A stretch of 39,041 nt of DNA from Allobrachymonas sp. Lineage in GTDB: Bacteria; Pseudomonadota; Gammaproteobacteria; Burkholderiales; Burkholderiaceae_C. Position 1 is the first letter of the stretch; the number at the start of each line of letters is the position of its first letter. Below are positions 280 to 39,041 of the stretch, piece after piece. Where the stretch lies: contig JAUMWT010000021.1 in the NCBI GenBank assembly GCA_030529505.1, forward strand, positions 1 through 39,041, written 5' to 3'. A model generated the notes under the pieces. It saw nothing but the letters and a program-made list of their open reading frames with translations. It had not been told where the DNA came from and did no database searches. A program made the translations under genes and the position numbers.

Positions 280-442
280 ATGTCTCAAATTGTGTACGTT
301 CTCACCAATGAAGCCATGCCCGGCATCGTCAAAATCGGTATAACCGAGGCCGATTCCGTGGAATCACGCATGGCGCAGCTCAATGCGCACAGTGGCGTGC
401 CATTGCCTTTTGAGTGCTATTTCGCGGCCGAAGTGGATGCGC
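280..442 (+). pseudogene. GIY-YIG / T5orf172-type nuclease, 5' fragment cut by an IS
   Basis: The ATG at 280 opens a protein beginning MSQIVYVLTNEAMPGIVKIG. The pattern YVLTNEAMPGIVKIGIT, followed by SRMAQLNAHSGVPLPFECYFAAEVD, is typical of the N-terminal half of T5orf172/GIY-YIG nuclease-like proteins, which occur in phage and bacterial accessory genes. About 54 residues are readable. The frame then enters the terminal repeat of an IS3-family element at 443 and continues only as IS-encoded nonsense. The rest of the gene is not found on the far side of the IS, so this is a truncated pseudogene rather than a simple interruption. An in-frame TTG at 259 is a less likely start. The domain assignment comes from pattern recognition and is fairly secure; the function of the intact protein is unknown. 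Confidence 0.65.
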
Positions 443-481
443 AAGCTTCCCCGTCAAGCATACACTTCAAAAGTAGAACTT
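443..481 (+). repeat. IS3 element left terminal inverted repeat
   Basis: This 39-bp arm starts AAGCTTCCCC and ends AAGTAGAACTT. It aligns without gaps to the reverse complement of 1598-1636, with 10 of 10 outer and 11 of 11 inner bases identical and about half of the 18 middle bases matching. Confidence 0.7.
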
Positions 482-1278
482 CCGGCGAGGTGATTGCGGT
501 ATTCGGAGGGGGTGAGATGGCCGAGTGCGTCGTGGGGACGCGCCTGGTTGTATTCGAGCATCCATCCATAGGCGGCTTCGCGCACATCCTCAAGGCGGGT
601 GAACAGGTGTTGATCCAGAACCTCCTCCCGGAACGTCCGGTTGAAGCGTTCGATGTAGGCGTTCTGGTTCGGCTTGCCGGGCTGGATATAGCGGAGGGAC
701 ATGCCGTTGAGCTCGGCCCACTGCACGAAGGCTTCGCCCAGGAACTCGGGGCCGTTGTCGGTACGCAGCACTTGCGGCAGGCCGTGACTCTGCTTGAGCT
801 GCTCGAAGATCCGGACCAGGCGCGCCGAGGAGATGGAGGTATCCACTTCGATATGCATGGCCTCGCGGTTGAAGTCGTCGACGACATTGAAGGTTCGGAA
901 GCGGCGGCCACAGGCCAGCGCATCGGCCATGAAGTCAGCCGACCAGACGATGTCCGGCTGCTTCGGCACATACAGCGGCACGCGCTCGCGCTTGGGCAAT
1001 CGTTGTTTGGCTTTGCGCCGCAGGTTGAGCTGCATGGCGGTGTAGACCCGGTAAATCCGCTTGTGATTCCAGTCTGGCCGCGCACGCGGCAAGACCTGAC
1101 AGCACTTCCAAAAGCCGCGACTGGGACGTGTGGCAACCTGCTCGGTGAGTGCAGCGATGATCTCGGCATCGCGCACTGTCCAGTGCAGCGGCGGTCGATA
1201 CCAGGCGGCTCGTGACAGGCCGACACATTCGCAGGACCGGCTCAGGGGGCGGGCGTGTACCTGGGTCAGATACCGCAC
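454..1278 (-). CDS. IS3-family transposase OrfB (DDE integrase domain)
   Basis: This is the catalytic half of an IS3-family transposase, which cuts and joins the element ends. It carries an N-terminal HTH_21-like region (CVGLSRAAWYRPP) and then an rve integrase core. The DDE triad is visible: D in VWSADFM, D in LRTDNGPEF, and E in NAYIERFNRTFREEVLD. It ends with the family-typical YNQARPHDALGHLTPSEYR. The given start is a GTG, but in this family OrfB is normally made as an OrfA-OrfB fusion by -1 slippage. The frame is indeed open back to the A7 run at 1308-1314, where OrfA ends. OrfB is intact, but because OrfA upstream is frameshifted, a functional fusion is unlikely. Confidence 0.85.
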   Translation of the reverse strand: MRYLTQVHARPLSRSCECVGLSRAAWYRPPLHWTVRDAEIIAALTEQVATRPSRGFWKCCQVLPRARPDWNHKRIYRVYTAMQLNLRRKAKQRLPKRERVPLYVPKQPDIVWSADFMADALACGRRFRTFNVVDDFNREAMHIEVDTSISSARLVRIFEQLKQSHGLPQVLRTDNGPEFLGEAFVQWAELNGMSLRYIQPGKPNQNAYIERFNRTFREEVLDQHLFTRLEDVREAAYGWMLEYNQARPHDALGHLTPSEYRNHLAGSSTFEVYA

Positions 1279-1301
1279 CGCCTCGCGTTTCTGCGTCGGC
1301 C

Positions 1302-1567
1302 CTACAGTTTTTTTGCGATCAAGTCCCTCATCGCTGCGTTGTCCAGTGCCAGCTCGGCATACAGCCGCTTGAGCCTGGCATTCTCCGCTTCCAGATCCTT
1401 GATCCGGCGCAGCCCGGAGGCCTCAAGGCCGCCGTACTTCGACTTCCACTTGTGAAGTCGGCATGCTGATGCCGGACTGCCGACAGATGTCCTTGACGGG
1501 GACACCGGCATCGGCTTGCTTGAGGATGGAGACGATCTGGGTTTTTAGTAAAACGGGACTTCTTCAT
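1302..1567 (-). pseudogene. IS3-family OrfA, frameshifted
   Basis: OrfA supplies the DNA-binding helix-turn-helix and leucine-zipper part of the IS3 transposase. Here the start MKKSRFTK at 1567 is followed by a one-base shift in an A run; TQIVSILKQADAGVPVKDICRQSGIS continues in another frame. A second lesion follows near 1455. The 3' part is again clean (KWKSKYGGLEAS through LYAELALDNAAMRDLIAKKL, stop TAG). The two indels break the gene. The end of the frame overlaps the A7 slippery run (1308-1314) used by this family for -1 frameshifting into OrfB. Confidence 0.8.
1308..1314 (-). other. A7 slippery site for OrfA/OrfB -1 frameshift
   Basis: Seven A residues on the coding (reverse) strand sit at GCA AAA AAA CTG TAG, the end of orfA. 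A -1 slip enters the orfB frame (AAA AAA ACT GTA GGG). This is the standard IS3-family arrangement. Confidence 0.7.
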
Positions 1568-1597
1568 GAAAACTCCTGGCTGGGGAAACAGGCCAGA

Positions 1598-1636
1598 AAG
1601 TTCTACTTATGCAATGTCTGGTGATTGGGGAAGCTT
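1598..1636 (-). repeat. IS3 element right terminal inverted repeat
   Basis: This is the partner of 443-481. Read on the reverse strand it begins AAGCTTCCCC and reaches AAGTAGAACTT 28 bases later, the same spacing as the left arm. Confidence 0.7.
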
Positions 1637-1992
1637 ACGACTGCGATGGCATGCGGTAAACCTTGGCTATCCACCGCGATGTGACGCTTGATGCCCGAGA
1701 CTTTCTTGCCGGCGTCATAGCCCTTCAGGCTTGCTGTATCACTGTTCTTCACGCTCTGAGCATCCACGATCAAGAAGGTGCTGCATACGCTGCGCCCCTG
1801 TCTGTCTCGGGCCGCGCCAACTTGATTTTTTCAAAGCTTGCTCCAGCAAACTTGTGCCTTGTTCATTGATCTGGCTCCAGATCTGGAAGTAGGCATGTAC
1901 GGTGCGCCATTTGGGAAAGTCGCTGGGCAAAGCTCTCCACTGGCAGCCTGTGCGCAGCAGGTACAGCACGGAAAAGATTTTGAACAGGCTCT
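1637..1992 (-). pseudogene. IS5-family transposase remnant
   Basis: Reverse-strand reading gives VLYLLRTGCQWRALPSDFPK, then RTVHAYFQIWSQINEQGTSLLEQALKK. After a frame break it gives NQVGAARDRQGRSVCSTFLI, VDAQSVKNSDTASLKGYDA and GKKVSGIKRHIAVDSQGLPH. This is the N-terminal DUF4096-type domain plus the start of the DDE domain of an IS5-family transposase, closely matching the copy at 38712. The 5' end is abnormal. The terminal repeat AGAGCCTGTTCAAAATCTTTT (reverse complement of 1972-1992) is joined directly to the VLYLL region, so about the first 40 codons are missing. The 3' end is cut off by the IS3 element at 1636. It cannot encode an active transposase. Confidence 0.8.
1976..1992 (-). repeat. 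IS5-type terminal inverted repeat (remnant end)
   Basis: Read on the reverse strand, the end is AGAGCCTGTTCAAAATC. It shares AGAGCCTGTTCA with the ends at 10793, 10963, 35510 and 38671, and marks the outer edge of the IS5 remnant. Confidence 0.65.
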
Positions 1993-10792: not shown

Positions 10793-10963
10793 AGAGCCTG
10801 TTCAAAGCCTTCGCATCGTATGCATTGCTTGGCAAAGGCAATAAATGAGCGTGATCTTTGTCGTACCCCTTGCCAAGACGGGGCCGTCCTGGCTGTAGCT
10901 TGCGCCGGGATCCTGACCATTTGTTGGACTTGCGTACACATGGAAAGACTTTGAACAGGCTCT
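10793..10963. mobile_element. 171-bp MITE with IS5-type ends
   Basis: The ends are 19-bp inverted repeats with one mismatch: AGAGCCTGTTCAAAGCCTT at 10793-10811, and on the reverse strand AGAGCCTGTTCAAAGTCTT at 10945-10963. No transposase reading frame lies between, so this is a non-autonomous element. The outer 12 bases are the same as those of the IS5-family copies at 38671 and 1992, which could supply transposase. I see no clear target duplication. It sits between cysM and tusA. Confidence 0.75.
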
Positions 10964-25463: not shown

Positions 25464-25523
25464 CGGGGCATTCTCGCTGATGGTGGGGAGCAGGCGCAGC
25501 GCGTGGCGCTTGCCGCAAGCGGG

Positions 25524-25878
25524 CGGTCTGGGGTCAATCGAACTGCTGGGCTGCTTGGTGGATGCAGAAAACGCAGAAGTCATGCAAAGGGCAGCGAAAT
25601 TTCAAAGAAGGCGCAGAAGTTGGCTCATCAAGAACGGCTGGTTCCGTGCCCCCATTTGTTTGCCATGCCGCGATGCGCTCGCCCCATCACACAAAGACAT
25701 CAAAAGCACTCTGCGAATCTCTGCATCCTCTGTGCCTCTGCGGTGAAAACGGCTTGAAAAACTTCTGCGGCTTTGGCGAAATCTCTGCGCCTTCTGCGTC
25801 GTTTGCGTCCTGATTCAAACCTTGCCATATCCAAGCTCCATATCTCAACGCCTCGCGTTGGGATTGTGAACAGGCGCT
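25524..25878. mobile_element. Palindromic repeat element, copy 1 (one end lost)
   Basis: About 355 bp here match 36681-37003 along most of their length. Shared landmarks are CGGTCTG, GCAGAAAACGCAGA, TTGGCTCATCAAGAACG, CTCTGCGAATCTC and GGCTTTGGCGAAATCTC. The interior is a large imperfect inverted repeat of CGCAGA/TCTGCG units. The end at 25857-25878 reads AGCGCCTGTTCACAATCCCAAC on the reverse strand, an IS5-like terminus; the opposite end is missing. No real protein is encoded. Its last base (25878) is the third base of the TAA stop of the Tim44-like gene. Confidence 0.75.
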
Positions 25879-35389: not shown

Positions 35390-35510
35390 TTTGCGGGCCT
35401 GCTCCAGAATGGGAAGGATCTGTTTGAACTGCTCAGGGCTGATGTCACTGGGTAGGCTCTTTGGCGCATGGCCTCAGTATGCACCCAGCAAAAGATCGTG
35501 AACAGGCTCT
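35390..35510 (-). mobile_element. IS5-family 5' end fragment (121 bp)
   Basis: Reading in reverse from 35510, the sequence starts AGAGCCTGTTCACGATCTTT and continues past an ATGCGCCAAAGAGCC start. It matches the full copy from 38671 for about 120 bases, to GCAGGCCCGCAAA, then stops abruptly. A one-base deletion breaks the transposase frame after nine codons. No right-hand end is found. Its first two bases (AG) complete the TAG stop of thiD. Confidence 0.85.
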
Positions 35511-36360: not shown

Positions 36361-36632
36361 GGCGATGTCTCCTCAAGAAGCCGTTCGGTGTTTTTCGATG
36401 GCCGGGGCGCAAATCAGGCGAATAAGCAGTGGCGGCAAGGCGCTGATGCAATTCAACCCCGCACTATCTTGGCAGGCCTTGGCACCAGCTCTCAAGCGCC
36501 TTTGGAGCAACTCCGCATTTTCGATGGGCTTGCCCGCTTCAAGGTCAAACAGGCCGTTTGCAAACAGGCTGCGGCGATTATGCAACCGCCCAGCGCCCAC
36601 TTGCCGCAGCAGCATCGGTTCACGCTTTTTTC
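36361..36632. other. Gap upstream of thiD, no gene seen
   Basis: This 272-bp stretch holds the leader of thiD (reverse). A reverse frame (36373-36615) has no recognisable family. No TPP riboswitch core or clear promoter was found. With the adjoining repeat element it makes up the gene-free 36361-37106. Confidence 0.35.
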
Positions 36633-37003
36633 AGAAGCTGTTCAAAGCCCCAACACGAAGCGCTTGAAAATGGATGCGATCGGTCTGTGATCAATCAAAC
36701 TGCTGGATGGACGCAGAAAACGCAGAGGTCACGCAGAAGGCGCAGAAACTTCAAAAGAAGGCGCAGTAGTTGGCTCATCAAGAACGACAACCTACGTGCC
36801 CAGGCTGTTTGCTACGCCGCGATGCGTTCACATGACACAGACAACCAAAGAACTCTGCGAATCTCGGTGCCCCCTCTGTATCTCTGCGGTGAAAACAGCT
36901 TTGACAAACTCTGCGGCTTTGGCGAAATCTCCGCGCCTTCTGCGTCCCGATTCAGACCTTGCCATACCCAAGCGCCCCACGTTGGGATTTTGAACAGCTT
37001 CTC
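36633..37003. mobile_element. Palindromic repeat element, copy 2 (371 bp, both ends)
   Basis: It is bounded by 22-bp inverted repeats with two mismatches: AGAAGCTGTTCAAAGCCCCAAC at 36633-36654, and AGAAGCTGTTCAAAATCCCAAC (reverse strand) at 36982-37003. The interior is a fold-back made of CGCAGA units on one side and TCTGCG units on the other. No transposase is encoded. The ends share CTGTTCA with the IS5-type ends in this window. It lies between the divergent thiD and nikR genes, 103 bp before nikR. Confidence 0.8.
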
Positions 37004-37106
37004 AGGGCTGCTTGGCGCCCAGCGCCCGCCCGCGCCAGCGCATCTGCCCAAGGGCGGCAATATGCCTGTATGATTTTGGAAATTTTTCTTGCTTCGGAGT
37101 TCAGAC

Positions 37107-38498: not shown

Positions 38499-38711
38499 TC
38501 GGGGTTGGCGCGGCCGCATTCCGCCTTGCACCTGCGTTTAGCGCCGCTGCGCTTTTGCTTCCTGCCCCCGAGCAGGGCCGGGCGGCGTGTGAGGACTGGC
38601 GTTGCGGCTGATGCGGCACTTCTTGTTGCACAGCGTGGTTCAGCGGCGCAACCACCATGCGCCCGCCCTTAGAGCCTGTTCACGATCTTTTGCTGCGTGC
38701 ATACTGAGGCC

Positions 38712-39041
38712 ATGCGCCAAAGAACCTACCCCAGCGACATCAGCCGTGAGCAGTTCAAACAGATCCTTCCCATTCTGGAGCAGGCCCGCAAACGCACCAA
38801 GCCTCGCAGCGTGGATCTGTACGAGGTGTTTTGTGCCGTGCTGTACCTGCTGCGCACCGGCTGCCAGTGGAGAGCTTTACCCAGCGACTTTCCCAAATGG
38901 CCAACGGTACATGCATACTTTGCCAAATGGAGCGAAGTGAATGCTGAGGGGGTGAGCCTGCTTGAGCAGGCTTTAAAAAAATCAAGTTGGCGCGGCCCGA
39001 GACAGACAGGCGCGCAACGCATGCAGCACCTTCTTGATCGT
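38712..39041 (+). CDS. IS5-family transposase, N-terminal part (partial)
   Basis: The N-terminal half of the transposase is open from ATG 38712 to the window edge (110 codons): MRQRTYPSDISREQFKQILP, then YEVFCAVLYLLRTGCQWRAL, PSDFPKWPTVHAYFAKWSEV. This is the DUF4096 domain of IS5-family enzymes. After LLEQALKK at the A7 run (38975-38981) the frame reads SSWRGPRQTGAQ, which is not family sequence. The proper continuation NQVGAARDRQARNACSTFLI is in another frame. Thus a full enzyme needs a +1 (or -2) shift at the A run. The same break is in the remnant at 1824-1829. Confidence 0.85.
   Translation, partial: MRQRTYPSDISREQFKQILPILEQARKRTKPRSVDLYEVFCAVLYLLRTGCQWRALPSDFPKWPTVHAYFAKWSEVNAEGVSLLEQALKKSSWRGPRQTGAQRMQHLLDR
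38975..38981 (+). other. A7 run at the frame change of the IS5 transposase
   Basis: GCT TTA AAA AAA TCA is the last in-frame stretch; the catalytic half is in the frame reading AAT CAA GTT. It may be a programmed frameshift site of the element. Confidence 0.5.

Follow-up and report, generated by a model that had tools for sequence, protein, structure and literature searches.

A hairpin core between exchangeable IS5-type ends, probably a MITE-like passenger of several transposases, in Allobrachymonas and related genomes

Short elements of an Allobrachymonas genome carry a single hairpin core which, in our reading, is probably a MITE-like passenger moved in trans by several IS5-type transposases, with its ends exchanged along the way. 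This reading, drawn from comparing sequences, takes its start from a window of 39,041 nt, by which we mean the whole stretch of DNA analysed. The passengers, of ~160-370 bp and without a protein product, usually have a bulged hairpin core of ~87 nt as their body. According to the proposed mechanism, an IS of ~838 bp that has GAGCCTGTTCA ends and duplicates TNA would find these ends on the passengers too. IS5-family transposases would move these passengers in trans, and the core would either be handed between sets of ends or be captured repeatedly. The hairpin itself may be under selection, helping the element to persist or to move as a folded single strand. The 370-bp element at the right of the window would be a short element of the commonest kind (class A) in which a different repeat took the place of the core's centre, the whole then spreading as one element.

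The preliminary description of the window had reported eight inward-facing ends with a common terminal pattern, and this observation of shared ends is real. All eight ends are exact matches to AGMRSCTGTTCA (Table 1), against none for the reversed pattern, and allowing up to one mismatch gave 13 matches in the window compared with 1.64 expected from shuffles (largest 6). Seven of the eight coordinates first given were right, and the one given as 37003 should read 37002. In the whole genome (2.39 Mb), exact AGARSCTGTTCA was found 278 times and its reversed pattern never, while eight same-genus genomes, some of them incomplete, held 0 to 13 copies each; this Allobrachymonas genome is therefore unusually loaded. 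The ends also face each other in pairs elsewhere in the genome: a relaxed search at distances of 60-600 bp returned 90 pairs, nested and spurious pairs counted in, in 806,303 bases, and 0 in the reversed sequence. This sample comprised the window and 39 other stretches of the genome, a 40th stretch (C73) being handled apart. The ends vary between GAGCC, GAACC and GAAGC.

Table 1. Elements, target duplications and exact terminal-pattern matches located in the window
Feature	Position	Strand	Remarks
IS copy, end fused to IS interior	1640..1991	-	blastn of IS to window; IS positions 157-487 at 1971-1640
Internally deleted class B element without conserved core ("171-bp MITE")	10794..10962	+	class B model 1-47 at 10794-10840 and 154-280 at 10835-10962; imperfect target duplication CGA/TGA
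Class C copy, left-truncated, without left TIR	25494..25877	+	right end GCGCCTGTTCA; nhmmer model positions 15-371 at 25494-25876; blastn similarity from 25524
Left-end fragment of the IS at 38672	35390..35509	-	inverted repeats 97% to 38668-38792
Left TCA of target duplication, 370-bp element	36631..36633		
Class C non-autonomous element, 368 bp (the 370-bp element of the text)	36634..37001	+	TIR GAAGCTGTTCA at both ends; class A-type outer arms
Right TCA of target duplication, 370-bp element	37002..37004		
Left end of an IS5-family IS with the first transposase frame (DUF4096), truncated at the contig end	38672..39041	+	TIR GAGCCTGTTCACGATC
Exact AGMRSCTGTTCA match	1981-1992	-	
Exact AGMRSCTGTTCA match	10793-10804	+	
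Exact AGMRSCTGTTCA match	10952-10963	-	
Exact AGMRSCTGTTCA match	25867-25878	-	
Exact AGMRSCTGTTCA match	35499-35510	-	
Exact AGMRSCTGTTCA match	36633-36644	+	
Exact AGMRSCTGTTCA match	36991-37002	-	
Exact AGMRSCTGTTCA match	38671-38682	+	

At the left of the window (440-1640), a pair of 42-nt inverted repeats, 76% complementary, encloses a minus-strand ORF with integrase-core (rve) domains; this is probably an insertion of IS3 type within or next to the IS5 copy at 1640-1991.

The passengers of this genome fall into several classes. Class A, the commonest (~160-199 bp), accounts for 92 non-overlapping HMM loci of the 806-kb sample, partial ones included; 56 of the 92 are full length, and 54 of these 56 measure 158-199 bp. 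Its copies are short, numerous and dispersed, have no coding capacity (judged from length alone), and have a bulged hairpin as their body. Class B is a long form of ~280 bp, and the core motif TGCAAGGCGC...GCAACGCnGCAG is common to long and short forms. The window's 171-bp MITE corresponds to class B without model positions 48-153. Class C, to which the 370-bp element belongs, is 347-374 bp long and joins the outer arms of class A to a middle rich in CGCAGAG. A further element type was found at C99:31154. The window had been thought to hold two unrelated interiors captured between the same ends. The class A arms and the class B deletion rule this out for the window, where the palindromic element is a short form whose middle was exchanged and the MITE a long form with a deletion. 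The idea of capture survives for the CGCAGAG middle. In same-genus genomes, CGCAGAG/CTCTGCG repeats were seen standing alone, without IS5 ends (L366, L367); the middle of class C resembles these free-standing repeats and does look captured.

The leading A of the end pattern is target sequence and the element starts at the G of GAGCCTGTTCA, as shown by the flanks and by the counts of exact duplications. Exactly matching 3-bp flanks of the relaxed pairs were mostly TTA, TCA, TAA or TGA, often within C-TNA-G. Exact 3-bp duplications were present in 25 of the 90 relaxed pairs (shuffled mean 8.7, max 19) and in 23 of the 56 full-length class A copies (shuffled mean 6.6, max 15), a proportion which suggests that many class A copies are old or rearranged. 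Among 13 of the 21 class C loci (L031-L051), five, the window's own copy included, had both ends and an exact TNA duplication, with duplication entering the end-picking score, and one right end carried 3 mismatches. A filled site could be set against an empty one: a class A element at C73:1339-1511 is nested in the second frame of an IS copy with a clean TCA duplication, and the flanks joined across it match at 78% over 138 nt an IS copy in C95 that is uninterrupted there. At the locus of the 370-bp element in the relative G001, the element is absent and the intergenic DNA around it does not align.

The same IS copy, C73:908-1921, has the terminal sequence at both ends. Without the nested element it would measure about 838 bp, and it consists of a first frame followed by the interrupted second one. 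Its transposase belongs to NF033580 (IS5_3), the right halves of the copies L070 and C73 scoring 143.5 and 129.7 bits (cut-off 110) and the window's left part alone 93 bits, and has the domains PF13340 and PF01609. The start or parts of the window transposase matched 17 places in the genome. Of these, 12 lie no more than 60 nt from the end of a contig, which is what repeats collapsed in assembly should give. The IS and the class A passengers of this genome have GAGCCTGTTCACGATC ends in common and both have the TNA duplication, and their shared sequence is limited to the outer ~11-17 bp. The placing of IS5 copies and short non-autonomous elements under one end family thus agrees with both ends and duplication, and cross-mobilisation of the passengers by an IS5 transposase would account for it. 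The further suggestion that one transposase moves all of them oversimplifies, given the three end variants and the occurrence of the core, elsewhere, between ends of another IS5 subgroup.

Clean IS copies were recovered from other genomes. That of L303 (genome G300) is 848 bp long with GAACCTGTTCA at both ends and TAA/TAA duplicated, and that of L309 is 847 bp long with GAACGTGTTTACGATC ends and TTA duplicated; the transposase frames overlap in L309 and L310. The IS of L320 measures 1171 bp and has GGCAACGCTGA ends, a 4-bp TTAA duplication and one 320-aa ORF assigned to NF033581, for which a search of solved structures gave no match. As partner IS for GGATCCTCTGCA-type ends, only one similar end was found, beside a contig-cut transposase (L319). 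Other DUF4096 IS copies, of 860-870 bp with GAGCGGCTAACAAAAC-type ends and a TNA duplication, were noted at L290, L292 and L299. An origin of the core from an IS interior, as an internal-deletion MITE, was rejected, since the core model finds nothing inside the IS of L303, L309, L310 and L320. The two matches of the model at L097 are class A elements, and those at L320 lie outside the IS, at the end of the locus.

We then considered the core across the family. A class A copy matched 131 of 399 family genomes (own included) and 61 of 141 genera, with only about positions 43-124 covered in many of the matches listed; 268 of the 399 genomes gave no match, including the five same-genus genomes listed (G002-G006). 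In other genomes the core lies ~40 nt inside differing terminal repeats. The exact core pattern was found in at least 111 stretches, for example of Acidovorax, Comamonas, Ottowia, Simplicispira, Xylophilus and Polaromonas. The loci analysed (L119-L227) were 29 family loci and 80 of these pattern loci, with copies near a locus edge dropped; 82 of 99 elements had recognisable ends, the other 17 being dropped, and 47 of the 82 had a length of exactly 161. Results showed two sets of ends. A TNA-type set (n = 28) has GAGCC/GAGCG-TGTT ends; 18 of its elements duplicate 3 bp (shuffled 5.7, max 11) and 1 duplicates 4 bp. A YTAR-type set (n = 54) is bounded by GGnnnCnCTGnA ends, and here 24 elements duplicate 4 bp (shuffled 4.2, max 11) and 2 duplicate 3 bp. 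The two sets match the IS of two IS5 subgroups, NF033580 and NF033581. Homology of the core within the family and the existence of two end sets are well supported.

Both end sets are present on a single complete chromosome (G228, one contig, 4.57 Mb), where 11 stretches were examined with an end scan that favours ends with a duplication. L392 and L393 end in GAACGTGTT and duplicate TGA and TAA, and L387 ends in GGAACCTCTGCACGAATC and duplicates CTAG. Without a clean duplication, L386, L389 and L396 have ends like GGAACCTCTGCACGAATC or of GGCGACGCTGA type, and L391 and L394 have ends of GAnCCTCTT type; the scan gave no clear ends for L388, L390 and L395. Class B of the Allobrachymonas genome aligns with long forms of ~265-270 bp from G228, G072 and G995. 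More end types surround the core in G054 (L421, L422) and G995 (L413, L418), namely TGTGGTGTTTCG and GAGCCTGTCGGACTTAA, both with CTAG duplicated. At L147, L154, L171, L211, L220 and L222, the core adjoins a GAAATCGGGCGATTT-like module without a matching right end; the module probably belongs to the long form. Carriage of the core by phages or plasmids was rejected: no viral contig had the exact core pattern, one short-form query matched 0 of 50,697 phage records and 4 of 72,556 plasmids, none over 80% of the query, and a class-level query matched no plasmid.

The core tree (87 columns) requires 8 changes between the end sets, and its starred branches force 3, compared with ~24 changes for shuffled labels; a single TNA clade was not rejected (AU p 0.338). 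If the cores are homologous, ends have been exchanged at least once, and repeated exchange appears likely from the tree.

The hairpin is strongly supported by covariation. RNAalifold on 71 elements gave 43 pairs, 34 of them changed on both sides. In the non-terminal stems (29 pairs), 95.1% of pairs were standard, against 82.3% in shuffled alignments, and covariation scored 0.342, compared with 0.113 (sd 0.006) after shuffling and no more than 0.090 after sliding, the structure being favoured over the slid versions as it was derived from the same alignment. An exact 22-nt pattern in the right core arm had served to find the loci of 43 of the 71 aligned elements, so that the constancy of that arm (helices 3 and 4) is partly by construction; helices 1 and 5, which covary, and the motif TGCAAGGCGC of the left arm are not covered by this pattern. 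A number of core columns that are unpaired show no or almost no variation. In 69 of 71 elements the better fold is that of the strand with GCAACGC, and departures from pairing favour G-U over A-C by 72 to 34, although these counts are not independent events. This strand asymmetry points to a folded single strand of RNA or DNA. One could go further and see in the hairpin core the evolving unit itself, whose drivers switched many times across the class while its bulges and 161-bp frame were kept, the core acting in mobility or as an RNA; we put this forward tentatively, as somewhat less probable than its opposite.

The same structural data bear on a neutral origin of the hairpin, in which symmetry would arise by template switching during replication and an old core would be carried by whatever IS5 ends are available. 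Many bacterial MITEs are palindromic, and the stems covary most strongly in the arm between core and terminal repeat, which suits such an origin. However, template switching should perfect the arms, yet unpaired core columns stay near-invariant across the 71 elements (in the right arm partly by construction), the left-arm motif lies outside the search pattern, and one strand folds better in nearly all elements. We consider a purely neutral hairpin unlikely. Slightly less probable still is a core that serves the host as a functional RNA, terminator or processing site and that transposon ends merely spread. The strand asymmetry, the strong covariation and the presence in many genera agree with such a use, but the 268 family genomes without a match, close relatives among them, do not. 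Rfam lends it no support either: at the gathering score its single match in the window was a tRNA, and the four core loci, searched with E up to 1, gave one match, of 22.5 bits against a gathering score of 40, so that a known RNA family was rejected. An integron attC or REP-type site was set aside after inspection by eye.

Outside the family, a covariance model of the core, with rough E-values from a short calibration, matched 70 of 369 genomes of the taxonomic class at E 1e-4 (own included) and 54 of 272 genera. We took 28 loci, of which 23 were checkable. Terminal repeats (at least 11/12) stood in the expected place in 9 of the 23, against a permuted control of 8% on average and 22% at most, and were missing from the other 14, some of which look by eye like longer composites. 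That these matches are chance hits of a loose hairpin model is improbable: rough E-values, the 14 loci without repeats and the lack of repeats outside the class would fit it, but 299 of 369 genomes have no match while others have 10 or more, the repeats exceed their permuted control, and G072 and G995, of other families of the same order, show ends with duplications round the core. In a sample of the phylum, 38 of 398 genomes matched, 23 of them labelled outside the class; terminal repeats were in place at 4 of 16 readable loci, all of the own family or order, and at 0 of 8 readable loci outside the class. The reach of the core beyond the class is therefore unproven, and the matches there suggest it weakly at best. 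In three genomes of one genus outside the class (L376, L378, L383), a core-like hairpin flanks a gene at what seems to be a common site, and may have been inherited there.

The usual view of MITEs is that they are degraded copies of a single transposon. Here a core lasts through dozens of genera although its ends and duplication change, which suggests that the long-lived lineage can be that of the passenger rather than of the driver, and that the folded form matters. Many intergenic palindromes of Comamonadaceae and relatives may also come under a single description in this way. A core with exchangeable ends is new, while IS5-type passengers in themselves are of a known kind. Among open-licence papers, judged by title or the start of the abstract, we found no published description of the core or of end exchange, and literature matches to the 11-letter GAGCCTGTTCA look by title like chance.

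Compared with known groups, the IS with TNA duplication resembles IS427 in part. IS427 members measure 832-865 bp, have two overlapping frames with a frameshift motif and, in the table of the paper concerned, have duplications mostly of 2 bp (PMC3281130). Overlapping frames are present here (L309, L310) and a 2-bp duplication is not, so that, going by that table, the 3-bp TNA duplication keeps our IS from being filed in IS427. A three-nucleotide site is given for one IS427-classed element and is also named as a feature of IS1031 (PMC2516522). The IS1031 group has one ORF, unlike the IS described here; with two frames and a 3-bp TNA duplication, the latter fits neither group cleanly. The IS5 group proper has a YTAR target, and the IS of L320 agrees with it in length, ORF, TTAA duplication and NF033581 assignment; what sets it apart is that it lies in another genome, where it would drive the core as a second transposase. 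TIMEs are reportedly Tn3-derived miniature non-autonomous inverted-repeat elements able to build mosaics. Their ends are of Tn3 and not IS5 type, and we know of no core that they have in common with class A. REP/REPIN palindromes and Correia elements are abundant palindromic intergenic repeats as well, and differ, compared by description, in their ends and mobilising enzymes. The closest likeness is to the IS5-family MITEs, which are also short, without ORF, present in many copies and bounded by IS5-like terminal repeats with a target duplication. A typical MITE belongs to a single IS, from which it arose by deletion; here, in contrast, the IS copies tested contain no core, and one core lies between the ends of two IS5 subgroups with duplications of different length.
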